DNA from: a virus
Length of the DNA stretch: 37,777 bases
Direction: 5' to 3' (one strand)
IMG/VR virus record: IMGVR_UViG_3300031586_000373
Location: 1 to 37,777 of that record
Made by a program: the position numbers and the translations under genes. This document shows, piece after piece, positions 925 through 21,294 of the stretch. The notes under the pieces are model-generated. The model had not been told where the DNA came from and searched no databases. It saw only the letters and a list, made by a program, of their open reading frames with translations. Each line of letters begins with the position of its first letter. Positions within the stretch are counted from its first letter, which is position 1.

Positions 925-2102
925 TGGCAGGCCCCAACGAACCCAATGCCGCCAATCGCCCATTCTCTGACCTGCCGGCAGGACTGGTTGAGGAGGTGCT
1001 GGCCAAAGCCACTCAGGTCGGCAGTCACCTTCTGGACGATTTCACCCACATGAAGCGCGATAAGGCCGCACTCCGTCAGAAGCTTGAGGACGCGAGGCTC
1101 ATCGCACACGAGTCTGAGCTGCCCAGCCCGCAGATTCCGACGACATGTGCGGCTGACGGGTCATACGCAATTGAGCGCCTGCTGGCGGCGGACCTCGCTG
1201 CCGCGGCGGCCGTTGCGGTTGAGGGGCTGACACCCCCAAGCGAGACCCGGCATTGGGAAGCACCGCACCACCGGACCTTCGTTCGAGCTGAAGTCCACCA
1301 CGATGGTACGGGGACCGTCTTGCGGGCCGTAATGCTCGGTCGTGAGCTAGAGCTTGCCGCGTCTGCACCGCATGACCTAGTTCTGCTCGACATGACGCTC
1401 ACGCTGCCCGTGATCTACTTCAACCAGGCGTTTGCCAAGGCGCAGGAGATCAATCGCGAACTTGGACTAGGCCAGGTCGCCTGTGTTGCCGAGTTCCAGC
1501 AGAATGCCCTTGAGTTCGTGCGGCACTACCGAGCAATCTTGAAGTGCGAGAGGTCTGACAAGGCGTTCGTTGGCCTTCCCAAGTACTCGACGCGACGAGA
1601 GATCGGTGAGACCGCTGGGTGGCCATCGCATCACGATGACCGGTCGCTCCTCACGCTTCTCTTGCGGCCCGGCGAGTATGTTCGGCCACAAGCACTGGCT
1701 GACAGCGACTTTCATCTGCGCACGCCAATGCCCAGTGGCGCTGCCACTGACGCTGCCAAGGCAGTTGCCGTGGACATCGTCGGAGCCCTGAGAGAGATGA
1801 AGGTTGTGTACTATCGTCCCCATGGATTCCTCCCCGCACTTCGGGTGGAACTGCCAGCAGCTGTTGCGGACAATGTCCACAGGCTCGCAACTGTGCTGAG
1901 AGGGCTGAAGGAACAGTCAGTCGTCTCGTCCATGCTAGAGCCGTACCCCCTGTACATGGCCGACCGGATGGCCAAGTCCTTGGCCGCTGCCATTCCCGCC
2001 TTCCGGCAGGTGGCAACCCAGAGGATCAGCGCCGACTACGAGGGCGACATTGGGGAAGTGTTCTTCGCAATGCACGGATACCGTAGCGAAGGCGGCCGAT
2101 GA
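924..2102 (+). CDS. nurA: NurA-type nuclease
   Basis: A 392-residue protein with NurA-family landmarks: D78-G79-S80, a second acidic site at D156 in a VLLDMTL strand, a GLPKYS segment near K221, and the C-terminal YPLYMADRMAKS segment at about 341-352. NurA enzymes are Mn-dependent nucleases that dock on a HerA hexamer and process DNA ends; the HerA-like gene directly follows, which strongly supports the call. I chose ATG 924 because it overlaps the preceding stop as TAATG and has GGAGG about nine bases upstream; ATG 894 is an alternative giving 402 residues. The 3' end overlaps an alternative start of the HerA gene. In this setting the pair more likely serves DNA degradation in defence than archaeal-type recombination, which is inference. 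Confidence 0.82.
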   Translation: MAGPNEPNAANRPFSDLPAGLVEEVLAKATQVGSHLLDDFTHMKRDKAALRQKLEDARLIAHESELPSPQIPTTCAADGSYAIERLLAADLAAAAAVAVEGLTPPSETRHWEAPHHRTFVRAEVHHDGTGTVLRAVMLGRELELAASAPHDLVLLDMTLTLPVIYFNQAFAKAQEINRELGLGQVACVAEFQQNALEFVRHYRAILKCERSDKAFVGLPKYSTRREIGETAGWPSHHDDRSLLTLLLRPGEYVRPQALADSDFHLRTPMPSGAATDAAKAVAVDIVGALREMKVVYYRPHGFLPALRVELPAAVADNVHRLATVLRGLKEQSVVSSMLEPYPLYMADRMAKSLAAAIPAFRQVATQRISADYEGDIGEVFFAMHGYRSEGGR

Positions 2103-2113
2103 AGGAGCATACC

Positions 2114-3943: not shown

Positions 3944-3955
3944 CGAACGAACGAG

Positions 3956-4846
3956 ATGTGGTCCCTGGCCCGTGTAGCTGACTCTGTGCCGCGTCGCGCG
4001 TCCGGCATGTTAGAAGAGATGCTTGTGAAGCCCCGGGAACCAAGCCTTCCGAAATCGGTTGTTGATGAGATAGACGCGTGGCTTCCGGCCGTGCTCCCCC
4101 TGTGGAAACGACTGGTGCACCGGACGGTCCACGGCCCGCTCTTGCCGGAGGAGGCCGAGCACCTGCATCTGGCGGCCGTATGTCTCCATGACCTCGCGGA
4201 CACTTTGCAGACTGCGGCGAAGGCACTGTGGTGGGCGAAGCACGACTGGCTATGGGTGGCCGTTCACCGCGAGAAGCCGAACCGACAATGGGCAGTCCAC
4301 TATTCGCGCTTTCACTTTGACTACGCGGCCATCGCGCTGTCTGCCGCCTCCAACCACTTGGCTTCAGCGATGTGGCATCTCGAGGAGAAGGTGCGGGCAC
4401 CACTGGGGCGAGGCTACAAGACGGCCGCCGGTGCGAGCGGTGCCTGGAAGGACAGGAAGCCGTCGCCACCTCAATCGTGTGGAATTCTCGACGAGCTACT
4501 GAACGATGCGGCTTGGACGGTAGTGTCTGAGTACCGGAACCACTGGGTGCACAGAGGACTGCCGATAATAGCCGGCGAAGTCCGGCAGCAACGGAGGCAG
4601 ATCTGGCAAGATGTGGGCGACCCGGCTCCAAATGTGCCGTGGATGATGAAGCGCGAGACCCAGGACGGCCGGGTCTGCTACATGGTGCAGTACGACGAGC
4701 CGCAGTTCCGCATGGAGGAGTTGCTGGACAAGGGCGCGTTGGCCCTACAGGGCATGATCCGCGCGGTTGAGAGCTTCTTGACGCTCTACGACGCGGCCTA
4801 CCGAGAGCACGGAATCAGCTTCGGCGAGGATGCCGGCGGCACATAA
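3956..4846 (+). CDS. Putative HEPN-like protein in the DruA-NurA-HerA operon
   Basis: A 296-residue protein, mostly predicted helical and rich in Trp and His. Its most informative feature is R194-N195-H196-W197-V198-H199 within a SEYRNHWVHRG segment. This matches the R-(polar)-x3-H form of the RX4-6H motif that marks active HEPN ribonucleases, and lies in a helix after a long helical N-terminal region, as expected. HEPN proteins commonly act as RNA-cleaving effectors in defence and toxin systems. The gene starts 12 bp after herA with no promoter visible, so it is probably the last gene of that operon. It could instead be an immunity, regulatory or structural HEPN; the domain call rests on one motif plus helical character. 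No homologous name is recognised. Confidence 0.6.
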   Translation: MWSLARVADSVPRRASGMLEEMLVKPREPSLPKSVVDEIDAWLPAVLPLWKRLVHRTVHGPLLPEEAEHLHLAAVCLHDLADTLQTAAKALWWAKHDWLWVAVHREKPNRQWAVHYSRFHFDYAAIALSAASNHLASAMWHLEEKVRAPLGRGYKTAAGASGAWKDRKPSPPQSCGILDELLNDAAWTVVSEYRNHWVHRGLPIIAGEVRQQRRQIWQDVGDPAPNVPWMMKRETQDGRVCYMVQYDEPQFRMEELLDKGALALQGMIRAVESFLTLYDAAYREHGISFGEDAGGT

Positions 4847-4899
4847 AGACTTGTTAGTGCAGTGCTTGAGAACCGCAGCTCGTTTCTGCTAAGTGCCCC

Positions 4900-4929
4900 T
4901 TGCGTCGCGCCGCCGCCGTGCAGTATACT
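4900..4929 (+). promoter_or_regulatory. Sigma70-like promoter for the 5,001-7,023 pair
   Basis: TTGCGT at 4900-4905 and TATACT at 4924-4929 are separated by 18 bp and lie about 70 bp upstream of ATG 5001. TATACT differs from the consensus -10 by one base. The surroundings are G+C rich, so the match stands out. It makes the 5,001 gene the start of a transcription unit separate from the DruA-NurA-HerA operon. Confidence 0.5.
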
Positions 4930-4961
4930 CGCGGTGTTTGGGATATGTTCAAGTTGCGTGA

Positions 4962-4983
4962 TGGACCGTCTGTCGCCGGTCCA
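4962..4983 (+). promoter_or_regulatory. Hairpin or dyad in the leader of the 5,001 gene
   Basis: TGGACCG at 4962-4968 and CGGTCCA at 4977-4983 are perfect inverted repeats with an 8-base loop. They lie downstream of the predicted -10 box and just before the AAGGAG ribosome binding site (about 4986-4991). No T-run follows, so this is not a terminator; a leader RNA hairpin or a dimeric operator fits better. Confidence 0.35.
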
Positions 4984-5000
4984 CGGAAGGAGATACTGCG

Positions 5001-6197
5001 ATGGCGACGTTCAACTTGCGACGGTTCTCGAGGCCCGACATCATCAAGTCTATCGGCCTTGAGCACCTCTTGGCATTCCTTCGACCCTTCGATAGGTTCC
5101 TCGCAGGACGTGGGTTCCAGGTGCCCGCACAGGCGACACCTGACAGCTTCGATTACGACGGGCTCTGCGACGTGCTCATGGAGCCCGATTTCGACACGCC
5201 GCGGGAGTTGGCCGAGGGACTCTTCATTATCGATGATATGGCCACCCCGGAGACCATGGACGAGCTGCTCCGCGAAGCGGAGGAAGCCGGTCTGACCATC
5301 AATGGGAACCCGGACCCGACGCCGGCGGATGTAGCGATCCAGGTCTGGTTGCAGGAGTCCGAGCTCTTGGAGCGCAGGCATGCTCGCCAGCGGATCGAGC
5401 GGCTGAAGTCGTTCGAGTATTACCAAGCTGAATCGATGCCCACGCGGAAGTTCCGCCGAATCCCTGCCGCGGCGCTGAGTGCGCTGCAGAGAGACCTGGA
5501 TAAGTGGTTCGCCAAGCACCGTCGAGGTCGTGGTTCAAAGGTGACGCCCTACCCCCGGGGCGAAGAGATCTGGTTCACCATCGGGCACGGCGAGCCCTTC
5601 ACGCGCAGCCCTGCGCGGGAAGGTGACAAGTCCACGGTTCACTTCTTCCGTCCGGAGAAGTACGACATCGTCGTCTACGATTGCCGAATGGGCGAGATCC
5701 GCGTGCATGCTGCCTCCAAGGGTGAGCGGGAGCTCTACCGGTCGGCGATCGGTCTGCATCTGTTTGGCGATGAGGGCTTCTTTCCGGACACGGCGAAGTA
5801 CACGCTGGACCCGATCAAGGAGGACGGCGATGCCTGCCTCGTGTGCAGCGATGTGGAAGGCATCGACTGGATCAGGCTGGTCGAGTTGCACTATTACTGG
5901 GGCGGGGCTTATGGCGAGATCGAGATCCGCAAGGCCGACGACATCTTCGCGGCCTTCGCCGATCGTGGCAGGACGATCGGCGCGAAAGACCGGCTCATCC
6001 AGGCGAAGTTCGAGGTGAAGTTCACGCACATCAAGACAACGCGGAAGGCCACCCTGCGGCCCCCGAATCGAGCCATGTTCAAGAAGGAGGGGGATAGCGG
6101 CGTGTTGGACAGGTGGCTGGAGCTCCGCGGGTTCGCACCGGGCGCGGAGGAGCGCTACGACGATGAAGAGGTTGAAGTGGCTATGGCCCGCACTTGA
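5001..6197 (+). CDS. Unknown protein, first gene of a two-gene module
   Basis: A 398-residue protein I do not recognise. ATG 5001 has AAGGAG about nine bases upstream. The N-terminal third is acidic and helical and the middle (about 130-190) is Arg/Lys rich. Residues about 190-340 look like alternating beta strands (segments such as EIWFTIGHGEPF, YDIVVYDCRMGEIRVHA and WIRLVELHYYWGG). No transmembrane segment, signal peptide or nucleotide-binding loop is visible. The 3' end overlaps the next gene by 35 bases, which suggests tight coupling and a joint function. Position next to a DruA/NurA/HerA operon and beside a prophage suggests accessory function, possibly defence or element control, but nothing in the sequence fixes a role. 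Confidence 0.7.
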   Translation: MATFNLRRFSRPDIIKSIGLEHLLAFLRPFDRFLAGRGFQVPAQATPDSFDYDGLCDVLMEPDFDTPRELAEGLFIIDDMATPETMDELLREAEEAGLTINGNPDPTPADVAIQVWLQESELLERRHARQRIERLKSFEYYQAESMPTRKFRRIPAAALSALQRDLDKWFAKHRRGRGSKVTPYPRGEEIWFTIGHGEPFTRSPAREGDKSTVHFFRPEKYDIVVYDCRMGEIRVHAASKGERELYRSAIGLHLFGDEGFFPDTAKYTLDPIKEDGDACLVCSDVEGIDWIRLVELHYYWGGAYGEIEIRKADDIFAAFADRGRTIGAKDRLIQAKFEVKFTHIKTTRKATLRPPNRAMFKKEGDSGVLDRWLELRGFAPGAEERYDDEEVEVAMART

Positions 6198-7023
6198 GGG
6201 CGTCGGTGGACCGGCGGCGACGGCGCTGGAGTGGCGCGCGCTGGCGGGCGCCGAGAACCATCTCCTCCAGAAGTTCCTCCGGCCTCGGCAGGAGCTCGCC
6301 GCATCGTATCCGTGTCCTATCCGCGGTCAGTTCGGCATCCGGCACGATGTCATCCAAGACGCCCCCGACCGGTACGCCGGCGTGTGTCCCGATTGCTGTG
6401 AGGAGGAGACGCTGTCGAAGGCCGACATCGTTGTCCATGAATTGAACGTCGGGTCTCTGATCAAGGCGATCCGTTCTGCGTTTCAGTTACAGGGAACGAC
6501 CGCGCCAGTGGACGGCACCGTCACTGGGCACCGCATAGGGACGCACATTCGGCCAACTGGGCATCACGTGGCGGTGTACCTGGCGCTGGCCAGCAGCCCG
6601 CCGGAGCTGTACCGGGCCGTGGACCGCATCGCGGCCTTCGATGATGGTGCGTTCATCGTCTTGGCTCCGACAGCCAATCAACTGAACCGGCAGTCGGAGA
6701 CCGTCCTGGAGAAACGCCGTTCCTGGTTCGTCGCCCTCTCCGATGCGATTGGCCTCGATGGCAAAGGTCGCCTGGCAAGGTTGTGTGACATCGAGCAGTT
6801 GATTCAGCATCCGCGCAAGGCCAAGAAAGGCCGTTCGGGGCGGAAGAAGCTCCCGGCGAAAGAGGTCGCTCGCCGCAGCAAGCTGTGGGAGGGATGGGAA
6901 CAGGCCCGGGGCAAGGGAGGGAGGACGAGGGCGGAATACTGCGGGGACAAGGGCATCACCCCGACGTTTCTGGACAACTGCCGGAGGCTGATTCAGCAAC
7001 GCCAGGCACGAGAGGCGAGGTAG
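6163..7023 (+). CDS. Unknown protein with a Cys cluster and basic C-terminus, second gene of the module
   Basis: A 286-residue protein beginning inside the previous gene (35-base overlap). C51 (PCPIRG) and C75-P-D-C78-C79 could hold a metal as in an irregular zinc finger. The C-terminal 75 residues (about 210-286) are strongly basic and end in a segment resembling a helix-turn-helix (TRAEYCGDKGITPTFLDNC...), suggesting nucleic-acid binding. Residues about 90-190 look like a compact alpha/beta domain. A rho-independent terminator candidate lies 40 bp after the stop, so this is the end of the unit. No family name is recognised; a DNA-binding regulator or the partner subunit of the 5,001 protein are both possible. 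Confidence 0.7.
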   Translation: MKRLKWLWPALEGVGGPAATALEWRALAGAENHLLQKFLRPRQELAASYPCPIRGQFGIRHDVIQDAPDRYAGVCPDCCEEETLSKADIVVHELNVGSLIKAIRSAFQLQGTTAPVDGTVTGHRIGTHIRPTGHHVAVYLALASSPPELYRAVDRIAAFDDGAFIVLAPTANQLNRQSETVLEKRRSWFVALSDAIGLDGKGRLARLCDIEQLIQHPRKAKKGRSGRKKLPAKEVARRSKLWEGWEQARGKGGRTRAEYCGDKGITPTFLDNCRRLIQQRQAREAR

Positions 7024-7062
7024 CGACCTCGGACAAATCAGTCGCGGCTGCCGGCCGCAAGC

Positions 7063-7089
7063 AAAAGTCGCTAATTGGCGGCTTTTTTT
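7063..7089 (+). terminator. Rho-independent terminator after the 5,001-7,023 pair
   Basis: AAAAGTCGC at 7063-7071 pairs with GCGGCTTTT at 7078-7086 (one G-U pair) around a 6-base loop, and the second arm runs into seven T residues at 7083-7089. It is 40 bp past the stop of the 6,163 gene and is the clearest intrinsic terminator I found. It separates the left island from the phage-like genes. Confidence 0.7.
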
Positions 7090-7251
7090 GGGCGCGCATT
7101 TCCTGAGCAGGCCTTGCCTTGCACGTGCGCAGGCAATGTCTGCCCTCGGGCAAACCCCCTCGAATTTGTCCGTCCTCAAACGCGCGGATCCTCGGCGGTG
7201 GAGGCGGGCAATGGTCCCGCCGAAACGACATCCGGTTCGAGGAGATGCGCC

Positions 7252-7602
7252 ATGGTTCAGACAGCAGTCGGATTCGCAGGCGAGCCCAGCAAACGTGCTT
7301 TGTCCCCGGCACGACGACGGCTCGTGGAGATGTTGCAGGGGATCAACTTCGGGCGCATCGAGGGCTTGGTCGTCCAGGGCGGTACTCCGGCCTTCGACCC
7401 GCCCCCGCGCATCGTGCGCGAGATCAAGTTCGGCGGCGAGAACGGTCCTCGCCCGGAGGCGGCCAAGGAAGACTTCATCCTGAAGGCGTCGGTGCGTGAT
7501 CTGTTCGCCCAACTCGAGGCCATGGGCGACGGCATCGTGCAGTGCATCGAGGTCAAGCATGGCTTGCCTTTCAGAATGACCGTCGAGGAGGTGACGGCCT
7601 GA
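7252..7602 (+). CDS. Small unknown protein, first gene after the terminator
   Basis: A 116-residue protein starting at ATG 7252 with GAGGAG about seven bases upstream. An in-frame ATG at 7075 would read through the terminator and is rejected. The sequence holds a helical N-terminus, an IVREIKFGGE strand near the middle and a VRDLFAQLEAMGDGIVQCIEVKHGLPFRM segment near the end. No motif assigns a function. A 6-bp hairpin (7203-7208 with 7216-7221) lies in the leader. It precedes the sigma-like gene and is probably part of the phage-like region, although no integrase or repressor lies between it and the left island. Confidence 0.65.
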   Translation: MVQTAVGFAGEPSKRALSPARRRLVEMLQGINFGRIEGLVVQGGTPAFDPPPRIVREIKFGGENGPRPEAAKEDFILKASVRDLFAQLEAMGDGIVQCIEVKHGLPFRMTVEEVTA

Positions 7603-7678
7603 GCATCCGGGGGTCGGCTCCCCGCATGTGATGTGAATCAGACGAATCGAGTACCTGACAACTAACCGGCCACGAAGT

Positions 7679-7724
7679 GGAGGCGTTGTGGGTGCCGCAG
7701 AAGCGGCAATCCTGCAACGCCTCC
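7679..7724 (+). promoter_or_regulatory. Long hairpin in the leader of the sigma-like gene
   Basis: GGAGGCGTTG at 7679-7688 and CAACGCCTCC at 7715-7724 form a perfect 10-bp stem. Nested inside, TGCCGC (7693-7698) and GCGGCA (7703-7708) form a 6-bp stem with an AGAA tetraloop. No T-run follows. The two stems lie on one axis and suggest a folded leader RNA or a binding site rather than a terminator. Confidence 0.5.
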
Positions 7725-7740
7725 TCCGCATGTGGTCGCA

Positions 7741-7806
7741 GCTTCGGTTGGCACCCACGCCACGCCTCCCGGCCACGGGAGATCCCAAGTGGACACCAAC
7801 CGAAGC
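7741..7806 (+). promoter_or_regulatory. Inverted repeat enclosing the RBS and GTG start of the sigma-like gene
   Basis: GCTTCGGTTGG at 7741-7751 is the perfect complement of CCAACCGAAGC at 7796-7806. Inside lies a second perfect hairpin, CTCCCG (7766-7771) with CGGGAG (7776-7781), whose right arm is the GGGAG ribosome binding site; the GTG start is at 7789. The fold would hide the translation start, so translational control of the sigma-like protein is plausible. Confidence 0.5.
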
Positions 7807-8424
7807 ATCAACCCGCAGTCAGTCGTTTCTGATCCTTTCACTGTCACCTTCATCCGCATCAAGGCCAAGCAGTTGTGCCGCCGCACGGACGTGTCGCGGT
7901 CGGATCTGGAGGACCTGCAACAGGAGATGAGGCAGTACCTGCTGGAGAAGGCCCACCTGTTCGACCCCGAGCGCGGCAACGTCGAGGCCTTCGTCACCAA
8001 CGCGATTAACACCTGGGTGGCGATCTACCTGCGGCGCCAGGATCGCGAGAAGCGCCGCGACGCCCACAAGGCGGCGTCCCTGGAGCGCACGCACGTCGAG
8101 TGCAACGGTGACGTCCGCCCCTTGGGCGAGACCATCCTCGAAGAGGAGGCCCATCGCCGGCTTCAGACCGAGTTCCGGTCTGACATCGAGCAGTTCGAGC
8201 TGCGCGAAGACGTCCAGCACGTCCTGGCCGCGCTCAGTCAGGACGAGCGGGACCTGCTGGCCCACGTCGCCGAGCATGGCATGACCAGCGCCGCCCGGGC
8301 CCGCGGCACCTCCCGCCGGCAGATCCGCAATGCCATGGCGCGCATCCGCCACGCCTTCGAAAAAGCCGGCCTCGGCTCCGAGGGAGCGGACCGCGCCGTC
8401 GCCGGCGGCATAGGTAACCCATAG
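7789..8424 (+). CDS. Sigma-factor-like protein of the phage
   Basis: A 211-residue protein resembling a small sigma70-type factor. Residues about 35-95 resemble region 2 (SDLEDLQQEMRQYLLEKA, FDPERGN, AFVTNAINTWVAIYLRR), and residues about 140-192 resemble region 4 with a helix-turn-helix (ALSQDERDLLAHVAEHG, TSRRQIRNAMARIRHAFEKAG). Region 4 normally contacts the -35 element, so it may direct phage genes. I chose GTG 7789 because GGGAG lies seven bases upstream; ATG 7732 would add 19 unusual residues and run through the hairpin. The final codons and stop lie inside the 19-bp repeat that recurs at 24,729. It could also act as an antitermination or regulatory relative of sigma factors; the sigma-like fold is the firmer part. 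Confidence 0.72.
   Translation: MDTNRSINPQSVVSDPFTVTFIRIKAKQLCRRTDVSRSDLEDLQQEMRQYLLEKAHLFDPERGNVEAFVTNAINTWVAIYLRRQDREKRRDAHKAASLERTHVECNGDVRPLGETILEEEAHRRLQTEFRSDIEQFELREDVQHVLAALSQDERDLLAHVAEHGMTSAARARGTSRRQIRNAMARIRHAFEKAGLGSEGADRAVAGGIGNP
8406..8424 (+). repeat. Copy 1 of a 19-bp repeat upstream of the recombination genes
   Basis: CGGCATAGGTAACCCATAG ends exactly at the stop of the sigma-like gene and recurs without change at 24,729-24,747. The core GGTAACC is palindromic and the flanks extend it to an imperfect 13-bp dyad (ATAGGT/ACCCAT). It lies 75 bp before the ExoVIII-like gene. Similarity upstream of the exact repeat is weaker (18 of 25 bases from 8388, including the first few bases of the exact repeat). 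Confidence 0.6.
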
Positions 8425-12548: not shown

Positions 12549-14272
12549 CCGAATCGCTGCTGTCACCACCACCGGCACCGACCATCACGCTGCGCCCGTA
12601 CCAGACGGAGGCGGTCGGGGCCGTCTACGAGCACCTTCGCACCCGCGACGACAACCCCTGCGTGGTGATCCCGACCGCCGGGGGCAAGACGCCCGTGATG
12701 GCCACGATCTGCCGCGACGCGGTCGGCCAGTGGAACGGGCGCGTCCTGATCCTGGCCCACGTCAAGGAGCTGCTGGAACAGGCCGTCGAGAAACTCCACG
12801 CCATGGCCCCGGATCTGTGGCGGCAGATCGGCGTGTACTCGGCGGGCCTCAAGAGCCGCGACACCGAGCACCTGATCATCGTCGCCGGCGTCCAGAGCGT
12901 CTACCGCCGGGCGGCGGAGCTGGACCGCTTCGACCTGGTCCTGATTGACGAGGCGCACATGATCCCGCCCGACGGGGACGGGATGTATCGAACCTTCCTG
13001 GCCGAAGCGCGGGTGGTCAATCCCAACGTCCGCCTGATCGGCCTGACCGCCACGCCGTTCCGGATGACCACGGGGATGATCTGCGGGGCCGGCAACCTGC
13101 TCAACGAGGTCTGCTACGAGGTCAGCGTCCGCGAGCTGATCGTCCAGGGCTACCTGTGCCCGCTCAAGACCAAGGCCGGCCGCCGCAAGGTGGACACCTC
13201 AGGCCTGCACATCCGGGGCGGGGAGTTCATCGCCGGCGAGGTCGAGGCCCTGATGGACGATGACTCGCTCGTTCGGGACGCCTGCCGGGAGATCGTCGAG
13301 CACACCGCCAACCGCCACTCAGTACTGATCTTCGCCGCCGGCATTCAGCATGCCCAGCACGTTCAGCGCGTGCTCGCCGAGCTCGGCCAGAAGTGCGGCT
13401 TCGTCTGCGGCGAGACGCTGGCCTTTGACCGGGCCCAGACACTGAAACGCTTCCGCGACGGCGGCTTGAAGTATCTGGTCAACGTCAACGTCCTGACCAC
13501 CGGCTTCGACGCGCCGAACATCGACTGCGTAGCCCTGCTGCGCCCGACCAACTCGCCGGGGCTGTACTACCAGATGGTCGGTCGGGGCTTCCGGCTCCAC
13601 CCCGGCAAGGCCGACTGCCTGGTCCTGGACTTCGGCGGCAACATCCTGCGCCACGGGCCGGTGGATGATCTTCAGGTCAAAGACCGCAGTGGCGCCGGAG
13701 GCGAGGCCCCGGCCAAGGAGTGTCCGCAGTGCCAAGCGGTGATCCACGCCGCCTACGCCACGTGCCCGGAGTGCGGCTACGAGTTCCCGCCGCCGGAGCG
13801 GCAGCGCCACGACCGCCAGGCCTCCACCGACAGCATCCTCTCCGGCGAAGTCACCGAGACGGAGTACGAGGTCACCGACGTCTACTACACCGTCCACGTC
13901 AAGCGCGGTGCCCCCGAAGATCACCCGCGCAGCATGCGCGTCGACTACCGCGTCGGCTTCAGCGACTACCGCAGCGAGTGGGTGTGCTTCGAGCACACCG
14001 GCTACGCCCGGGCCAAGGCCGAGGTGTGGTGGCGCGCGCGGTCGAATGAACCTGTCCCCGAGACGGCCGAAGAGGCCGTCGAGATCTGCCAGGCCGGCGG
14101 GATCGCCGAGACGAAGGCCATCACCATCCGCAGCGTTGCCGGCGAGAAGTTCGACCGGATCACGGACTACCAGTTGGGACCGATCCCGACGCGGCTGGAC
14201 AGCAGCGACGAGAGCGACCTCGAAGGAGTGCCTTCGGATTGGCCGCCGGATGACTGCGAGGTACCGTTCTGA
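12545..14272 (+). CDS. SF2 DEAD/DEAH-box helicase with C-terminal zinc ribbon
   Basis: A 575-residue superfamily 2 helicase. Walker A PTAGGKT at 43-49, DEAH at 135-138, motif III TAT at 168-170, motif V-like TTGFDAPN at about 318-325 and motif VI QMVGRGFRLH at 343-352 are all present. A zinc ribbon follows: C393-P-Q-C396 and C407-P-E-C410. Such phage helicases unwind DNA for replication or recombination, resembling the ResIII/UvsW-like group. ATG 12545 overlaps the previous stop by four bases and fits the start of the conserved LRPYQTEAV Q-motif region; an upstream ATG 12392 lies inside the phosphoesterase gene and is rejected. Its stop overlaps the replication protein by one base. Confidence 0.85.
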   Translation: MTESLLSPPPAPTITLRPYQTEAVGAVYEHLRTRDDNPCVVIPTAGGKTPVMATICRDAVGQWNGRVLILAHVKELLEQAVEKLHAMAPDLWRQIGVYSAGLKSRDTEHLIIVAGVQSVYRRAAELDRFDLVLIDEAHMIPPDGDGMYRTFLAEARVVNPNVRLIGLTATPFRMTTGMICGAGNLLNEVCYEVSVRELIVQGYLCPLKTKAGRRKVDTSGLHIRGGEFIAGEVEALMDDDSLVRDACREIVEHTANRHSVLIFAAGIQHAQHVQRVLAELGQKCGFVCGETLAFDRAQTLKRFRDGGLKYLVNVNVLTTGFDAPNIDCVALLRPTNSPGLYYQMVGRGFRLHPGKADCLVLDFGGNILRHGPVDDLQVKDRSGAGGEAPAKECPQCQAVIHAAYATCPECGYEFPPPERQRHDRQASTDSILSGEVTETEYEVTDVYYTVHVKRGAPEDHPRSMRVDYRVGFSDYRSEWVCFEHTGYARAKAEVWWRARSNEPVPETAEEAVEICQAGGIAETKAITIRSVAGEKFDRITDYQLGPIPTRLDSSDESDLEGVPSDWPPDDCEVPF

Positions 14273-16938
14273 TGAAGGACGCGGCCCGGCAATATCTCGA
14301 CGCCGGCCTGTGCGTCCTGCCTGCCCGGCGGGACCAGAAGCGCCCGACCATCGCCTGGAAGGGCTTTCAGTCGCGGCTGCCGACGCAGGCGGAGGTCGAG
14401 GCGTGGTTCGCCAACGGGCCCGACGCCTTGTGCATCATCGCCGGCGCCGTCTCGAGCAACGTCGAGCTGATCGACTTCGATGGCGGCGGGGAGCTGTTCG
14501 AGGCCTGGTGCGAGAAGGTCCGCGCGGCCGCGCCGGGCCTGCTGGAGCGGCTGGTCCTGTCCAAGACCCAATCCGACGGCCGCCACGCCGCCTACCGCCA
14601 CGAGGCTTCAGGTTGCGGCAACCTCAAGCTGGCCCAGCGCGAGGCCGGCGGGCGGATCGTCACGCTCATCGAGACCCGAGGCGAGGGCGGCCTGTTCCTG
14701 TGCGCGCCCACCGCCGGCTACGAGCTGATCCAGGGCGACTTGTGCGACCCGCCCGTCCTGACCGCCGCCGAGCGGGACATGCTGCTTCGGGCCGCCTGGG
14801 AGCTCAACGAGTACGTCCCGCCGGTGGTGGACGGGCCCACCGGGGACGCCCCCGTTGGCCCCACGTTGGCCCGTGTGGCCAAAGGGGCCGAGCGGTCGCC
14901 TGGTGGGCCAGCCGGCGGGCAGGAAGGCCCTGGGGGCGACGCCCACGCCCGCGGCCCTGCGGCAAACTGTCCGCCGTTGTCGGCGAAGGTCGGCCAGCGG
15001 ACGGCATTGTCGGCCCACAAGGGCGGCTTGTCCGCGGACAACGCCCACAATGGCGATTGTCGGTCGCACAGCGCCGCTCTCGGCCAGAGAGCGCCATCAT
15101 CGGCCGCACAATGCGGATGTGCGGCAGACAATCCGCACACCGGCAGTTGTCCGTCGAACAATGCCGCTGTGGGGCAGACAGGGTCGCTGTCTGTCGGACA
15201 GGCGGGTTGTCGACCAGAGAATACCGACCGTCCTGGCGATGACTTCAATACCCGCGGAGATGTGCGAGCCGTCCTGGAGAATGCCGGCTGGGCGCTGGCC
15301 CGGGCGGGCCAGAACGAGTACTGGCGCCGGCCGGGCAAGGCCTCCGGATGGTCGGCTACGCTCAAGGACGGCGTCTTCTACGTCTTCAGCTCCAACGCCG
15401 CGCCCTTCGAGCCGAACCGGGCGTACTCGCCCTTCGCCGTCTACGCCCTGTTGGCCTGCGGCGGGGATTTCGAACAGGCCGCACGCTCTCTGCGAGAACG
15501 CGGCTTCGGGGCCGATTCTCTGGCGGACAGCGCCGACGGCCCGGACATCTCGGCCATTGTGCGAATGTCCGCCGCACCCGGCGATTGTCCGTCGGACAAT
15601 GCCCCTCTCGGCGAGACAATGGCAATGTCCGACGGAGAAGCCGCACCAGCGCCAGAGATGGCCGACCCCGGGCCGCTCCCTGCCGAGATGCTGCGTGCGC
15701 CGGGCTTCATCGGCGAGGTCATGGACCACACCCTCACCGTCGCGCCGTACCCGAACCAGATGATGGCGTTCGGCGGCGCGCTGGCGCTGCAGGCGTTTCT
15801 GGCCGGGCGCAAGGTGCGCGACGCCGGCGACAACCGCACGAACCTGTACCTGCTGGGGCTGGCGCATTCCGGGGCGGGCAAGGACCAGTCCCGCAAGGTC
15901 AACTCACGGATCATCCACGCGGTCGGCCTGGGCGAGAGCCTCGGCCTGCACTTCGCCAGCGGGGAGGGCATCCAGGACGCGCTGTTCCAGACGCCGACAA
16001 TGCTGTTCCAGACTGACGAGATCGACGGCATGCTCCAGTCGATCAACAAGGCCAAGGACGCCCGGCACGAAGCGATCATGGGCACAATGCTGACGATGTA
16101 CTCGTCGGCCAACAGTGTCTATCCCATGCGGCGCAAGGCGGGCAAGGAGTCGCCCGGCGTCATCGACCAGCCGTGCCTGGTCATCTACGGCACCGCCATC
16201 CCGAACCACTACTACCAGGCCCTCAGCGAGCGGATGCTGACCAACGGCTTCTTCGCTCGCATGATCATCCTCGAAGCCGGGCCGCGAGCGCCGGGGCAGG
16301 AGCCGAGCATCCGCGACCTGCCCGCTCGCGTGCTCGCAATCGCGCAGTGGTGGGCGGACTACCGGGCCGGTACGGGCAATCTGGAGAACTGGCACCCGGT
16401 CCCGGCCATTGTCGAACACAGCGACAAAGCCAAGCGGCTGTTGGTCGAGACGCGTCTGGAAGCAGAGGCCGAGTACGCCAAGGCCGAGCAGGCCTGCGAT
16501 GCGGTGGGCACGACCGTCTGGGGCCGCGTCAGCGAGCAGGTCCGCAAACTGGCGCTGCTGCACGCGGTCAGCGAGAACCACGAGGCCCCGCGCATCGGCC
16601 TGGCCGCCGTGCAGTGGGCCTCGCGGTTCGTCATGCACCAGACCCGGCGCATGCTGTTCATGGCCGCCTCGCACGTCGCGGATAACCCGTTCCATGCCGA
16701 GTGTCTCAAGCTGCTGGAGAAGCTGCGCGGCGCATCGGGCAACGAGCTTCCCCACAGCGTCCTGCTCAAGCGCATGAAAACGGACGCCAAGACCTTCAGC
16801 GTGCTCATCGAGACCCTGGCCCAGCAAGGCGACATCGAGATCGTCACCGTGCCCAGAGCGGGTTCGCCGCCTCGGTCGTATCGCCTGGCGCGCGGGGTGA
16901 AACGTGACAGTGAAACCAGCGACGGGGGTGAAACGTGA
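14272..16938 (+). CDS. Bifunctional Prim-Pol / DUF3987-type replication protein
   Basis: An 888-residue replication protein. The N-terminal ~200 residues match the bifunctional primase/polymerase domain (LCVLPARRDQKRPTIAWKGFQ, ALCIIAGAVSSNVELIDFDGG, GGLFLCAPTAGYELI). A Gly/Ala/Cys-rich linker contains three 30-residue repeats (232-321). Then comes a small domain (FYVFSSNAAPFEPNRAYSPF) and, from about 470, a DUF3987-like helicase domain with Walker A GLAHSGAGK at 529-537 and an acidic FQTDEIDGM segment. It would prime and unwind phage DNA at the origin. The last 14 codons are made of iteron sequence, so the C-terminus (GVKRDSETSDGGET) reflects DNA-site constraints rather than protein fold. This gene ends the replication operon. 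Confidence 0.85.
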   Translation: MKDAARQYLDAGLCVLPARRDQKRPTIAWKGFQSRLPTQAEVEAWFANGPDALCIIAGAVSSNVELIDFDGGGELFEAWCEKVRAAAPGLLERLVLSKTQSDGRHAAYRHEASGCGNLKLAQREAGGRIVTLIETRGEGGLFLCAPTAGYELIQGDLCDPPVLTAAERDMLLRAAWELNEYVPPVVDGPTGDAPVGPTLARVAKGAERSPGGPAGGQEGPGGDAHARGPAANCPPLSAKVGQRTALSAHKGGLSADNAHNGDCRSHSAALGQRAPSSAAQCGCAADNPHTGSCPSNNAAVGQTGSLSVGQAGCRPENTDRPGDDFNTRGDVRAVLENAGWALARAGQNEYWRRPGKASGWSATLKDGVFYVFSSNAAPFEPNRAYSPFAVYALLACGGDFEQAARSLRERGFGADSLADSADGPDISAIVRMSAAPGDCPSDNAPLGETMAMSDGEAAPAPEMADPGPLPAEMLRAPGFIGEVMDHTLTVAPYPNQMMAFGGALALQAFLAGRKVRDAGDNRTNLYLLGLAHSGAGKDQSRKVNSRIIHAVGLGESLGLHFASGEGIQDALFQTPTMLFQTDEIDGMLQSINKAKDARHEAIMGTMLTMYSSANSVYPMRRKAGKESPGVIDQPCLVIYGTAIPNHYYQALSERMLTNGFFARMIILEAGPRAPGQEPSIRDLPARVLAIAQWWADYRAGTGNLENWHPVPAIVEHSDKAKRLLVETRLEAEAEYAKAEQACDAVGTTVWGRVSEQVRKLALLHAVSENHEAPRIGLAAVQWASRFVMHQTRRMLFMAASHVADNPFHAECLKLLEKLRGASGNELPHSVLLKRMKTDAKTFSVLIETLAQQGDIEIVTVPRAGSPPRSYRLARGVKRDSETSDGGET
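14965..15234 (+). repeat. Three tandem 90-bp repeats inside the replication gene
   Basis: Units at 14965-15054, 15055-15144 and 15145-15234 each encode 30 residues sharing C at position 2, A7, G10-Q11, S16, G21 and N26. A related partial fourth unit lies apart at 15583-15660. DNA in the units carries TTGTCCG/CGGACAA dyads: perfect at 15028-15041 and at 15584-15600 (ATTGTCCGTCGGACAAT), near-perfect at 15047+100 (15147-15161) and 15187-15201. The repeats sit between the primase and helicase domains. Confidence 0.75.
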
Positions 16939-17163
16939 ACAGCCTCCGGACGACAGAAATGGCACGAACGGCCGGTCAGGTTTCTCTCATTTCACCCACG
17001 TTTCACCCCCACAGGGTGAAACGTGAGATCGGCGGAAAGGCCCAATATATAAAGGAAAACAACAACTCTCTCTTCTTATTTCACCCATTCACCCCCACCC
17101 CCTCGCGCGACGCCCGCCCGCGCGAATATGCGTGTGTATGCGCGAGGGGGGTGAAAGGTGAAA
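16894..17163 (+). other. Iteron cluster with AT-rich stretch, candidate replication origin
   Basis: Direct repeats of GGGTGAAACGTGA occur at 16894-16907, 16925-16938 and 17013-17026. The same element inverted (CACGTTTCACCC) is at 16997-17008 and pairs perfectly with 17014-17025. Degenerate inverted copies at 17079-17097 and direct copies at 17150-17168 flank a perfect 10-bp stem (17098-17107 with 17141-17150). Between them, about 17043-17082 is very AT rich in an otherwise G+C-rich region. The gap 16939-17275 holds no gene I can support. Iterons plus an easily melted stretch at the end of the replication gene is the usual make-up of a phage or plasmid origin. Confidence 0.55.
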
Positions 17164-17275
17164 CCTGAGATTAGGTACTTCCCGCCGGACGGGGCAGGAG
17201 ACGGCCGCGGGAACAGCCGCGCCCAATAGCAGAGTTGGTTTCGGCTGTCCGGTTTTTTCCAGGAGATCAGAATGC

Positions 17276-17623
17276 ATGGACACAACACAACCGAGAGCGA
17301 TGGCAGATGCATGGAAGGCGCGGGCGTCGGAACTCGTCAGCCGGCTGCGAACCGACCACCACAACGGCCTGATGCTTCGCGACCCGTGGTCCCGGGCCGC
17401 GCACTGCATGGTCCAGGGCTGGCGTATCCGTCTCAGCCGCCCGCCCGCGAAAGGAAACGCCCGAGCCACTCCCAGGCCGACATGGCGGGTATTCGCCCGC
17501 CTGGCGGTAGGGATCGCCGCCACAAGAGCGAATCACGCGAGGCGAAGCGACTGGCACCTGTGGGCCACGCGGCGCGTGTCGGCCGGCAGCCGGTACGTCC
17601 CCAAACGCAAGCGCAGCTGGTAG
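17276..17623 (+). CDS. Small unknown basic protein upstream of the HNH gene
   Basis: A 115-residue, strongly basic protein rich in Arg and Trp. Two frames overlap here. I prefer this one because its third codon positions are mostly G or C, as in neighbours, while the 17272 frame over the same stretch has mixed third positions and a low-complexity translation. AGGAG lies about ten bases upstream and serves either ATG. A W-rich segment ends in YVPKRKRSW. Nucleic-acid binding is plausible from charge only. If the 17272 frame were the real one, its product would be a 211-residue protein with the HNH domain at its end. Confidence 0.5.
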   Translation: MDTTQPRAMADAWKARASELVSRLRTDHHNGLMLRDPWSRAAHCMVQGWRIRLSRPPAKGNARATPRPTWRVFARLAVGIAATRANHARRSDWHLWATRRVSAGSRYVPKRKRSW

Positions 17624-17661: not shown

Positions 17662-17907
17662 GTGCTGTGCCTGCTGGAGCACCAGCAGTACCGCTGCGCC
17701 CTGACGGGCCGCGAGCTGACGCCGGAGACGGCCGCCCTTGACCACGTCGTGCCCGTCCGCCTCGGCGGCGAACACGTGATCGAGAACACCCAGGTGCTGC
17801 ACAAGGATGTGAATCGGGCCAAGGGATCTCTCACCAGCCAGGAGTTCATCGGCCTCTGCCATGAGGTCGTCGCCTGGTCCAAAGCGCACACGGAGGTGCA
17901 CCCATGA
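17662..17907 (+). CDS. HNH endonuclease
   Basis: The 81-residue minimum product holds an HNH domain: a CALTGRELTPE segment, the ALDHVVPVRLGGEH core with D-H, IENTQVLHKDVNRAKG with N and H, and an EFIGLCHEV helix. HNH proteins near phage packaging genes often nick or cut concatemers or assist the terminase. The start is uncertain: GTG 17662 is the first in-frame start after the preceding gene but its ribosome binding site is weak; an ATG at 17272 in the same frame would give 211 residues but the upstream part does not look coding. The stop overlaps the methyltransferase start by four bases. Confidence 0.65.
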   Translation: MLCLLEHQQYRCALTGRELTPETAALDHVVPVRLGGEHVIENTQVLHKDVNRAKGSLTSQEFIGLCHEVVAWSKAHTEVHP

Positions 17908-19289
17908 CCACCAAGACGTTCGACGTGGAGCTTCGCCCCATCGACGCCGTCCGCCCGTACGAAGGCAACCCGCGCGTCAACGATCAGGCCGTAGACGCCG
18001 TCGCGGCCAGCTTGAGGGAGTTCGGCTTCCGCCAGCCCATCGTGGTTGATGGCGACGGCGTGATCATCGTCGGCCACACCCGCTGGAAGGCGGCCAAAAA
18101 GCTGGGCCTGGCCAAGGTGCCCGTCCACGTGGCCACCGACCTGTCGCCCGAGCAGACCAAGGCCTACCGGATCGCCGACAACCAGACCGCCAGCCTGGCC
18201 GAGTGGGACTTCGACCTGCTGCCGATCGAGCTGAAGGACCTGCGGGGCGCCGATTACGACCTGAGCCTGTTGGGCTTCGACGAAAAGGCCCTGGCCAAGC
18301 TGCTCGACGGCGAGGTCAACCCCGGCCTGACCGACCCGGATTCCGTTCCCGAACCGCCCGACGAGGCGGTCACCCGGCGCGGCGACATCTGGCTGCTGGG
18401 CGAGCACCGGCTGATGTGCGGTGACAGCGGCAGCCAGGCCGACGTCGACCGGCTACTGGCCGGGGCGACCATCGACCTGATCAACATGGATCCGCCGTAC
18501 AACGTGAGGGTCGAGCCGCGCAGCAGCACGGCCATCGCGGCCGGCAACAGCTCCTACCCCGATCTCTCGGGCAAGATGCACCACCAGGGCTTCGACGTAG
18601 CCCGCGGCGTGACCGATCCGAAGAAGGCGCGCAAGAAGATGCGCCCCAAGGACCGGCCGCTGGAGAATGACTTCGTCTCAGCCGAGGACTTCGACGAGAT
18701 GCTGCTGGCGTGGTTCGCCAACGCCTCACGCGTCCTGAAGCCGGGCGGGTCGTTCTACATTTGGGGCGGCTACGCGAACCTCGGCAACTACCCCGCGCCG
18801 CTCAAGGCGGCCGGCCTGTACTTCAGCCAGGGCATCGTCTGGGACAAACAGCACCCGGTGCTGACCCGCAAGGACATGATGGGATGCTTCGAACTGGCCT
18901 TCTACGGCTGGAAGGAGGGTGCAGGCCACAATTTCTACGGCCCCAACAACGCCACGGACCTGTGGCACGTCAAGAAGGTCAACCCACAGGCGATGGTCCA
19001 CCTGACCGAGAAGCCCGTCGAACTGGCCGTCCGATCGATTCAGTTCAGCTCGCTGCCGGGCGAGAACGTCCTGGACCTGTTCGGCGGCAGCGGCAGCACG
19101 CTGATCGGCTGCGAGCAGACGGGGCGGCGGGCGTTTCTGGTGGAACTGGACCCGCTGTACTGCGACGTGATCGTCCAGCGTTGGGAAGAGTTCACCGGCA
19201 AGAAGGCCGAGCGGATCGCGGCCGAGGCCGAGGAGTTGCCGAAGAGCACCCCGGCCGGGGCGACCGGGGTGGAGGAGGCGGCGGGTTGA
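17904..19289 (+). CDS. ParB-like domain fused to a beta-class DNA methyltransferase
   Basis: A 461-residue fusion. Residues about 5-100 form a ParB/Srx-like domain (RPYEGNPRVND, GFRQPIVVDGDGVIIVGHTRWKAAKKLG, RIADNQT). The C-terminal part is an N6-adenine/N4-cytosine methyltransferase: catalytic DPPY at 196-199 precedes the AdoMet motif DLFGGSGST at about 391-399, the beta-class order. Such phage fusions modify phage DNA, giving protection from host restriction or marking DNA for packaging or control. No partner restriction gene is seen; the HNH gene immediately upstream overlaps it by four bases but is not a known partner. It faces the HARE-HTH gene, with only eight bases between the stops. 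Confidence 0.87.
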   Translation: MTTKTFDVELRPIDAVRPYEGNPRVNDQAVDAVAASLREFGFRQPIVVDGDGVIIVGHTRWKAAKKLGLAKVPVHVATDLSPEQTKAYRIADNQTASLAEWDFDLLPIELKDLRGADYDLSLLGFDEKALAKLLDGEVNPGLTDPDSVPEPPDEAVTRRGDIWLLGEHRLMCGDSGSQADVDRLLAGATIDLINMDPPYNVRVEPRSSTAIAAGNSSYPDLSGKMHHQGFDVARGVTDPKKARKKMRPKDRPLENDFVSAEDFDEMLLAWFANASRVLKPGGSFYIWGGYANLGNYPAPLKAAGLYFSQGIVWDKQHPVLTRKDMMGCFELAFYGWKEGAGHNFYGPNNATDLWHVKKVNPQAMVHLTEKPVELAVRSIQFSSLPGENVLDLFGGSGSTLIGCEQTGRRAFLVELDPLYCDVIVQRWEEFTGKKAERIAAEAEELPKSTPAGATGVEEAAG

Positions 19290-19297
19290 TGGCGCTC

Positions 19298-19858
19298 TCA
19301 GCGGGCCAACTCGAACTTGCCCCGCCCGACCTTGCGGAAGCGGGCCTGGTCGCCCTTCGTGGCGATCTCGCGGATGATGGCGGCGTAGATCGTGGCGGCC
19401 GGGGTCTTGCCGTTGGTCTTCCACAGACCCTTGGCGAGCATCTGCTCGACCATCTCCTTGGTGTTCATCGGCTTGCCGGCCTCGGCCAGGACCTTCGCCG
19501 CGGCGTCCAGCCCGCTGGCCCGCTTCTTCTTGTCGGCGGCGACGGCCTGCATGGCGGCGTTGACCGCGTCGGCCTTCGTGGCCTCGGTGATGCCGCCGCG
19601 CTTCTTCTTGGCGGTCGGGGCCGTCTTGGCCGCGCCGTCGGCGGGCTTGGCTGCGGACTTGGCCGCTGGCTTGCCCGGCCAGGTCGCGGCCCTGCCCCGC
19701 AGCCGCTGGGCGGACTTGATGCGGACGGCCTTCTTGGTCTTCAGGTTCGTGCCGTCCCAGCCGCCGCGGGGGTTCTCCCGGTCGATCCTGACCGGGGCGA
19801 TGTTGCCGCTCACCTTGGCGGAATACACGGTGCCGACCTTCACATCTGCCTTCTTCAT
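19298..19858 (-). CDS. HARE-HTH domain DNA-binding protein
   Basis: A 186-residue protein. The N-terminus (VKVGTVYSAKVSGNIAPVRIDREN...) resembles a small beta barrel. A Lys/Ala/Pro-rich linker follows, then a C-terminal HARE-HTH domain of about 75 residues (GLDAAAKVLAEAGKPMNTKEMVEQMLAKGLWKTNGKTPAATIYAAI...RFRKVGRGKFEL). HARE-HTH domains occur in proteins linked to DNA modification and restriction and in RNA polymerase delta. ATG 19858 has AAGGAG about seven bases upstream and is preferred to 19885. It is the last gene of the five-gene - strand block and converges on the DNA methyltransferase, which may be relevant: a reader or regulator of modified DNA is a reasonable inference. Confidence 0.75.
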   Translation of the reverse strand: MKKADVKVGTVYSAKVSGNIAPVRIDRENPRGGWDGTNLKTKKAVRIKSAQRLRGRAATWPGKPAAKSAAKPADGAAKTAPTAKKKRGGITEATKADAVNAAMQAVAADKKKRASGLDAAAKVLAEAGKPMNTKEMVEQMLAKGLWKTNGKTPAATIYAAIIREIATKGDQARFRKVGRGKFELAR

Positions 19859-19897
19859 GACTTGCTCCTTTGCTCTGGGGCCCATGGGGCCGGTTCC

Positions 19898-20176
19898 TTA
19901 CAGTCCCACCTCGTCAACGAGGCGGTTGAACTCGTCCACGCCGAGCATGTCTACGAGCATGCCGGCGAACCACTCGATCTGGCGCTGCACCTGGCGGTTC
20001 TTGACCCGCGCGGCCGTCAGGTAGGCGGCGATGGCCGCTACGGCCTGCGGGCTGAGGTTGTCCTTGAGGGCCGCGGCGAGGTTCCCCTCGTCGATGGCCT
20101 CGGGTACCGTCACACGGACTTTCTTGCCGCCGTGCTCGGCCTCGTACGTCTCCGGTCGCTTGCGCTTGCTCTTCAT
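19898..20176 (-). CDS. Small unknown protein of the - strand block
   Basis: A 92-residue protein with a basic N-terminus, a short strand pair (YEAEHGGKKVRVTVP) and a helical C-terminal half (LSPQAVAAIAAYLTAARVKNRQVQRQIEWFAGMLVDML). AAGGAG lies nine bases before ATG 20176. Third codon positions are G+C rich, supporting a real gene. No known family is recognised. Confidence 0.65.
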   Translation of the reverse strand: MKSKRKRPETYEAEHGGKKVRVTVPEAIDEGNLAAALKDNLSPQAVAAIAAYLTAARVKNRQVQRQIEWFAGMLVDMLGVDEFNRLVDEVGL

Positions 20177-20191
20177 GGTCCGTCTCCTTCT

Positions 20192-20371
20192 TCAGCGGCT
20201 CTGGACGATGGCGACCTGGAACTCGCTGCCGTCGTCGGTCCGAACCACCACCCCGCGGTTGCTGGTCAGCACGCCGGCCTCTTCGAAGGTTCTGACCTTG
20301 GCGACCTCCGGCGCGGCCTCCTCGTCCTGGAGCAGCTCGTACAGCATGGTTTCGATGTCGATCTCGTTCAC
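20192..20371 (-). CDS. Very small acidic protein of the - strand block
   Basis: A 59-residue protein starting at GTG 20371, with AAGGAG seven bases upstream, and ending at TGA 20192-20194. The product is acidic (DIETMLYELLQDEEAAPEV near the start) and ends with a beta hairpin-like GVVVRTDDGSEFQVAIVQ segment. It fits exactly into the space between its neighbours with the same spacing and ribosome binding sites, and is too short for most gene callers. No function is recognised. Confidence 0.6.
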   Translation of the reverse strand: MNEIDIETMLYELLQDEEAAPEVAKVRTFEEAGVLTSNRGVVVRTDDGSEFQVAIVQSR

Positions 20372-20383
20372 GATGGTCTCCTT

Positions 20384-20671
20384 TCAGTCGGCGAAGTACT
20401 GGAGCACGCGGACGTACTCCTCGATCTCGCTGTTGGTCCCGTCGTAGCCGTCGAGCTGGTTCTGCAAGCACTCGGCCATCGACCGGATGTCTTCCTCGCA
20501 GTCGGTCCTGATCATGTGTTTCCGCTCGCCGCCAGGCCGGAGGATCGTGACCTCGATGTACTGGGCGTCGGTGGTGCGGCTGACCTTGGCGAAGGCCCGG
20601 GGCAGGCCCGGCGTCCCGTCACGAAGCGTGGTCCTGCTGCTTCCCGCCAGTTCGATGCTGGTGATTCTCAC
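20384..20671 (-). CDS. Small unknown protein of the - strand block
   Basis: A 95-residue protein with GTG start at 20671 and AAAGGAG upstream, beginning 12 bp past the stop of the previous gene. The sequence has beta strands (YIEVTILRPGGERKHMI) followed by a helical, acidic C-terminus (EEDIRSMAECLQNQL...EIEEYVRVLQYF). No motif identifies it. Unusual small proteins on the opposite strand between early and late regions are often phage host-takeover or control genes; that is inference from position. Confidence 0.6.
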   Translation of the reverse strand: MRITSIELAGSSRTTLRDGTPGLPRAFAKVSRTTDAQYIEVTILRPGGERKHMIRTDCEEDIRSMAECLQNQLDGYDGTNSEIEEYVRVLQYFAD

Positions 20672-20683
20672 GGTTCGCTCCTT

Positions 20684-20896
20684 TCATTCGGCGTTGAGGG
20701 CGAGGATGACCCGCGGCGTGTAGCCGCACCGACGGGCCTCGGCGTTGATGGCCTTGCGGATGGCGCTGCCGGGCCTCGCGGCCAGGTAGATGCGGGCCAA
20801 TCGCTTCCAGCCCAGCTTCTCGATACGGCGCCGGCCGTCGCGGCCGCGGGCCGTCAGCCACTCGTGCGTCTCGGTGTTGCTCTTGGCCTTCTTCAT
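20684..20896 (-). CDS. Small basic protein, first gene of the - strand block
   Basis: A 70-residue basic protein starting at ATG 20896, with AAAGGA eight bases upstream. A further upstream start would need an unlikely 43-residue extension running through the palindromic control region. The product holds helices (RRRIEKLGWKRLARIYLAAR) rich in Arg and Lys, suggesting nucleic-acid contact. It is the promoter-proximal gene of five and ends 12 bp before the next. No family recognised. Confidence 0.55.
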   Translation of the reverse strand: MKKAKSNTETHEWLTARGRDGRRRIEKLGWKRLARIYLAARPGSAIRKAINAEARRCGYTPRVILALNAE

Positions 20897-20974
20897 CGTA
20901 AGTCCTTTCTGGTTCATGGCTTGCATTCCATTCTTCTGGTGACATGTTTGCTCGACTGGCGGCACATGGGAAGG

Positions 20975-21065
20975 GGATTCCGGCCCCCGGCGGCGGAATC
21001 TTTCGGCCGTAACTGTCGCACACATCTATGCTTACGGCATGTGGCGAAGATTCTGGCCGGAATCC
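20975..21065. promoter_or_regulatory. Nested palindrome between divergent - strand block and terminase operon
   Basis: GGATTCCGGCC (20975-20985) is perfectly inverted at 21055-21065 (GGCCGGAATCC), and nested inside, GCCGTAA (21006-21012) is inverted at 21032-21038 (TTACGGC). A further pair, GAATCTTTCGG and CGAAGATTC, matches imperfectly. All share a centre near 21021. The 197-bp gap (20897-21093) must hold promoters for both directions, so this is a likely shared operator region; I see no clear -35/-10 pair. Confidence 0.45.
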
Positions 21066-21093
21066 GACGCCCCCGCGGCCGAAGGAGCTGCCC

Positions 21094-21294
21094 GTGAGCG
21101 ACCCCGCGCCCAGCCTGACGGCGCTGACGGTGGCCCAGGCCGCGAAGGTGCTCTCGGCGGCCGGCGGCCGGCGGATCACCGAGGCGATGCTCCGGGCGGA
21201 CATCGACGCCGGCGCCCCGGCCAACGCCGACGGCACGATCAACCTCGTCCACTACACCGCCTGGCTCGTTCGGGAGGTCTCCGGTGGCGATTGA
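21094..21294 (+). CDS. Small protein before the terminase, possible terminase small subunit
   Basis: A 66-residue protein from GTG 21094, with AAGGAG six bases upstream; an ATG at 21028 in the palindromic region is less likely. The sequence looks like a helix-turn-helix (LTVAQAAKVLSAAGGRRITEAMLRADIDAGAP) followed by VHYTAWLVRE. Its stop lies 11 bases inside the terminase gene. The position and helix-turn-helix character suggest a DNA-recognition role in packaging, but it is shorter than usual small subunits. Confidence 0.55.
   Translation: MSDPAPSLTALTVAQAAKVLSAAGGRRITEAMLRADIDAGAPANADGTINLVHYTAWLVREVSGGD

Follow-up and report, generated by a model that had tools for sequence, protein, structure and literature searches.

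Experimentally tested origins of the SaPI/PICI elements lie directly 3' of pri-rep, with iterons flanking an AT-rich stretch, and in 2018 this layout was described as peculiar to PICI satellites (PMC6092414). In P4, iterons are also found by the 3' end of a primase-helicase gene (alpha), where they form crr, and another cluster lies at ori, some 4.5 kb off; the primase is of the Toprim type (PMC4234260). The crenarchaeal plasmid pRN1 and Bordetella phage BIP-1 have a single protein with Prim-Pol, helicase and winged helix, and replication of pRN1 needs a stem-loop of about 100 bp directly 3' of the corresponding gene, without iterons (PMC4234260). The models put forward for SaPI/PICI Rep (PMC6092414) and for P4 alpha and pRN1 ORF904 (PMC4234260) match the mechanism that we propose below. 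Our search of open-licence papers found nothing relevant on replication origins of Planctomycetes prophages.

Here we describe a locus at 16895-17168 of IMG/VR virus record IMGVR_UViG_3300031586_000373, of which the whole stretch of 37,777 nucleotides was analysed (the window). An earlier note, made from the sequence alone, had read this segment as a likely origin, and the comparisons reported here support that interpretation: the locus very probably serves a tailed phage or prophage as its replication origin, recognized by the product of the gene that it overlaps. The organization matches that of SaPI/PICI. In both systems the site lies directly 3' of a primase/helicase initiator gene (for SaPI/PICI by published description; here the array overlaps the stop codon), two iteron sets flank an AT-rich stretch, the iterons differ between elements, and the initiator joins primase, AAA+ helicase and winged helix, with the model of the present protein matching SaPI PriRep1 (7pds). 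The SaPI/PICI elements are satellites, whereas this record carries terminase, portal, capsid and tape measure genes of its own, which places it outside the PICI satellites, and the locus has an added G+C-rich element with an alternating tract. The present family looks like a counter-example to a layout restricted to PICI. With P4 the locus shares not only its position but also the core GGTGAA (GGTGAACAG in P4, GGTGAAACG here), yet it has one cluster instead of two and a Prim-Pol domain (PF09250) instead of Toprim. From pRN1 it differs in that iterons, absent there, are the dominant feature.

Organization of the Locus

The features of the initiator gene and the adjoining segment are as follows.

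14272-16938, + strand: replication initiator gene, 888 aa (Pfam, PHROG, AlphaFold, fold search)
16687-16887, + strand: winged-helix codons, putative iteron-reading domain (model secondary structure; iteron-type association)
16895-16907, + strand: iteron 1, exact GGGTGAAACGTGA, within the coding sequence
16910-16922, + strand: degenerate half-iteron GTGAAACCAGCGA (repeat search)
16926-16938, + strand: iteron 2, exact; the stop codon forms its last three bases
16985-17008, - strand: two inverted iterons, 16985-16997 (2 mismatches) and 16996-17008 (1 mismatch)
17014-17026, + strand: iteron 5, exact; pairs with 16997-17008 as a perfect 12-bp inverted repeat
17043-17082, no strand: putative unwinding element, AT-rich, with a pyrimidine tract at its end (CTCTCTCTTC) (G+C minimum)
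17074-17095, - strand: inverted iteron cores TTCACCC (17080) and TTCACCCC (17089), the distal iteron set
17089-17155, no strand: G+C-rich inverted repeat with a C run, an alternating purine-pyrimidine tract and a G run (repeat search, fold)
17149-17168, + strand: two closing direct iterons (GGGTGAAAGGTGA, AGGTGAAACCTGA)

The locus is thus bipartite, with iteron sets at 16895-17026 and 17074-17168 around the AT-rich stretch, and its order is direct iterons over the 3' end of the gene, 40 AT-rich bp, inverted iterons, the G+C-rich inverted repeat and the closing iterons. The earlier note had given direct repeats at 16894, 16925 and 17013; all three are present and exact on the + strand, each beginning one base later than was said. 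The inverted copy that it had put at 16997 exists on the - strand at 16996-17008, with one mismatch, and the degenerate copies that it had traced to 17168 were found at 16985 (-), 17074 (-), 17149 (+) and 17156 (+). The repeats are genuine and occur far more often than chance predicts: GGGTGAAACGTGA has 19 matches with up to 3 mismatches in the window against 9.35 expected and a maximum of 16 in 100 shuffles, and the 12-mer iteron core is not repeated exactly anywhere else in the record.

The claimed AT-rich stretch of about 40 bases was confirmed: G+C is 27.5% at 17043-17082, whereas the record averages 66.7%, and no 40-bp window in the whole 37.8 kb is lower in G+C than the one that starts at 17044 (25%). 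No DnaA-box-like word occurs in 16701-17400, which is neutral for an initiator-driven origin. A change in GC skew at the site, which had been predicted, was not seen: neither GC nor TA skew has a consistent turn or extremum here in the window and six long related records, all linear and possibly incomplete, and in such linear or prophage records GC skew neither supports nor refutes an origin.

The long inverted repeat noticed earlier at 17079-17163 is present and folds well. Its arms (17079-17096/17146-17163) are 72% complementary, an inner pair of 11 bp is perfect (17098-17108/17140-17150), and the predicted hairpin of this strand is stable in the window (z = -6.3 against shuffles). Its place 3' of the gene recalls the stem-loop of pRN1, but no pair shows compensatory changes in a covariation test of 48 relatives. 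A base-paired function of the repeat was considered and is not supported by that test; what is conserved is the make-up of the strand, with its C run, alternating tract and G run, and this is better supported for the G+C-rich element than pairing. It is most improbable that the segment acts as a DNA or RNA structure, such as a terminator, packaging or recombination site, in which the repeats are incidental. The stable hairpin and the packaging and HNH genes downstream would fit such a role, but structure alone does not explain why the conserved elements should be iterons that vary in type with the winged helix of the initiator (see below); moreover, no intrinsic-terminator-like site is listed in 16895-17168, covariation is absent and the only Rfam match is a chance one, with none near threshold.

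The Initiator Gene and Its Product

The initiator consists of an N-terminal Prim-Pol domain (aa 5-149; Pfam PF09250, E 2e-10), an AAA+ helicase-like core (about aa 477-800), a winged helix (about aa 806-872) and a tail of 16 aa. Its PHROG match is a DNA primase (6e-56), and its N-terminal part has homology to Sulfolobales plasmids. An AlphaFold model of the last 480 residues, built from 33 aligned sequences (pLDDT 79.7), contains the AAA+ core and the C-terminal winged helix. The fold search with this model gave MCM/CMG AAA+ subunits (Z about 17 over about 266 residues, rmsd 3.6), and Foldseek also matched SaPI PriRep1 7pds (E 3.6e-4) and NrS-1; a PDB sequence search with the alignment found no match. 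The helicase label DUF3987 (PF13148) was not confirmed, as Pfam matched the Prim-Pol only, even at E values up to 10.

As had been noticed, two iterons lie within the coding sequence, and the second ends the gene, its last three bases being the TGA stop codon (16936-16938). The accompanying remark that the C-terminus is written by the protein's own probable binding sites also holds among relatives: GGTGAA occurs within the final 75 nt of the coding sequence in 86/147 of them, against 1.8% of control stretches, and in 79/147 a GGTGAA repeat supplies the TGA stop or sits within 12 nt of it. The array starts 7 nt past the winged-helix codons, so that the repeats encode the disordered tail only. 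The last 13 residues are disordered in the AlphaFold model and, on that ground, the iteron-encoded tail is probably a by-product and no functional domain.

Conservation Across Relatives

Overlapping scans yielded 35 and 80 related loci from viruses and 80 from genomes, of which 149 were testable after removal of duplicates. Their hosts are mostly Planctomycetota, with cultured strains such as Rhodopirellula rubra CECT 8075 and Bythopirellula polymerisocia Pla144 among them, and the loci belong to both phages and prophages. The presence of iterons beside the homologous genes of relatives was the point on which the earlier note had most clearly staked its reading, and a cluster at the same place proved to be the rule across about 147 distinct relatives. 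In 91/149 loci the best repeated 7-mer around the stop codon (median 6 copies) surpasses all control windows taken from that locus, and in 119/149 it equals or surpasses them. Exact GGTGAARGAAG sites fall near the 3' end of the initiator gene in 37 of 38 cases (12 related records).

The layout is conserved along with the position. In the 118 loci of the GGTGAA type, with counts that ignore relatedness, cores before the AT centre are mostly direct (427+/112-), those between the AT centre and the G+C-rich element are all inverted (0+/116-) and those past the G+C-rich element are again mostly direct (162+/20-). In these 118 relatives the stop codon is followed by the AT-rich centre at a median distance of +105 bp. 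For the alternating purine-pyrimidine tract the median length is 14.5 nt in relatives vs. 7 in controls, with 86% of loci reaching the 99th percentile of controls (counts again taken regardless of relatedness). The iteron word itself varies (GGTGAA followed by ACGTGA, AGAAG or GGAAG; AATCCGTCAC; others), with the layout kept in most relatives, even where the word is wholly different (AATCCGTCAC, CTTATTG, CACGTTTAGCA). A minority of relatives have no recognizable iterons at the site (L025, L073, L076, L178, L180), and of five distant named phages that have a related helicase domain, four (CRP-902, Ssp-JY40, H188, C7) lack the cluster 3' of the gene.

The fifth of these, Sinorhizobium phage AP-16-3, has an analogous layout: it encodes a related protein followed by TTTGGAATT repeats, an AT-rich stretch and closing repeats, but its iteron word is unrelated, protein identity is about 25% and it has no origin annotation. 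In its origin-like region (L201:3970-4270), which comes directly after the 3' end of the primase-helicase-like gene, TTTGGAATT flanks the AT-rich stretch on either side.

The iterons could also be an operator or incompatibility site through which the initiator regulates how much of itself is made, the copy number or the transcription downstream, with replication starting elsewhere. There is a precedent in P4, where crr is separate from ori, and binding by the gene's own product would look no different under this reading. Against this, the site lies past the gene and not at a promoter, no sigma-70-like promoter was found nearby, the site holds the AT minimum of the record, and no second iteron cluster was found within the window or, bar one isolated exception, in 12 related records. 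We consider such a purely regulatory role very unlikely.

Co-variation of the Iterons and the Winged Helix

Across the aligned loci, iteron type follows the winged helix at the C-terminus, above all the wing, and does not follow the AAA+ domain. The distance between iteron profiles tracks winged-helix distance after AAA+ distance has been removed (partial r 0.456; maximum of 300 permutations 0.15), whereas its correlation with AAA+ distance after removal of winged-helix distance is -0.016 and AAA+ blocks of similar length give -0.13 to 0.12. The winged helix holds 13% of the alignment columns and 24 of the 25 that are most informative for iteron type, led by wing residues 865 and 862 (encoded at 16864-16866 and 16855-16857, respectively). 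With iteron classes that were defined after inspection of the data, residue 865 is R in 73/75 GAAG-type loci and W, S or T in 19/19 ACNTG-type loci, and residue 862 is T in 67/75 of the former and R or K in 18/19 of the latter. The AAA+ tree has about 16 changes of iteron class, which the wing residue tracks, and residue 865 agrees in 7/7 independent pairs on supported branches (sign test p 0.016). This co-variation suggests how the initiator may recognize its site.

Since winged helix and iterons are physically adjacent, their association might stem not from recognition but from a recombining 3' cassette, made up of winged helix and origin, that is inherited as a unit, in which case the site would still be an origin. 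That iteron type does not follow the AAA+ domain implies that this end of the gene recombines, and the remainder of the winged helix carries part of the association (partial r 0.319). Linkage of this kind is nevertheless an unlikely explanation. The G+C-rich element lies between the iterons and does not follow their type (regression -0.001, simple r 0.076), whereas the wing does (regression 0.417, permutation limit 0.08); iteron distance does not track the adjacent DNA; and the independent pairs at residue 865 all point in the same direction.

Recognition by the wing is the reading that we prefer, and it can be put as a code readable from sequence. The rules that we consider likely are R865 for GGTGAA-RGAAG, R862 with W, S or T at 865 for GGTGAA-[AT]CNTG, and a TKPAQGY wing for AATCCGTCAC. 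Such a code would probably set origin specificity, and the family would repeatedly switch to origins that may not cross-react, with helicase and layout kept.

Proposed Mechanism and Its Implications

Iterons, AT minimum, layout, conservation, the predicted winged-helix fold and wing-iteron co-variation are all observed at the level of sequence, and from them we infer binding, unwinding, priming and origin function along the following lines. The C-terminal winged helix would bind the iterons on either side of the AT-rich stretch, the AAA+ domain would form a ring and open that stretch, and the Prim-Pol domain would prime synthesis. The G+C-rich inverted repeat past the AT-rich stretch probably aids assembly or strand separation. 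The first half of the iteron, GGTGAA, is common to most of the family, and the second half would be read mainly by the wing (residues 862-865), for which reason site and wing would change together.

If so, the PICI-type origin layout also occurs in a large family of tailed phages and prophages that belong mainly to Planctomycetota and have hardly been studied with regard to replication. The residue-to-base rule is a concrete and testable one for origin recognition by initiators of this kind, and origins in metagenomic phages may be found by looking just past the initiator gene.

Genomic Neighborhood

A second conserved block lies past the proposed origin at 17173-17265 (TAGGTACTTCCCG ... GCGGGAACAGCCGC ... 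GCAGAGTTNGTTT ... TGTCCGG). Its strict pattern occurs in 14/147 relatives, 167-571 bp past the stop codon, and similar versions are visible in more. The block stands ahead of the HNH and gpA-type terminase genes and might be a cos site. A ParB-N domain fused to a DNA methyltransferase is encoded at 17904-19289, near the proposed origin. Positions 1-8000 have a clearly lower G+C content, 58-64%, against about 64-72% elsewhere, and are mostly without PHROG matches; they are possibly a different module or a flank of separate provenance. An open frame of 795 aa at 18710-21097 overlaps the methyltransferase gene, has no Pfam or PHROG match and falls in a stretch where AT skew is strongly negative, and is possibly non-coding on this strand.
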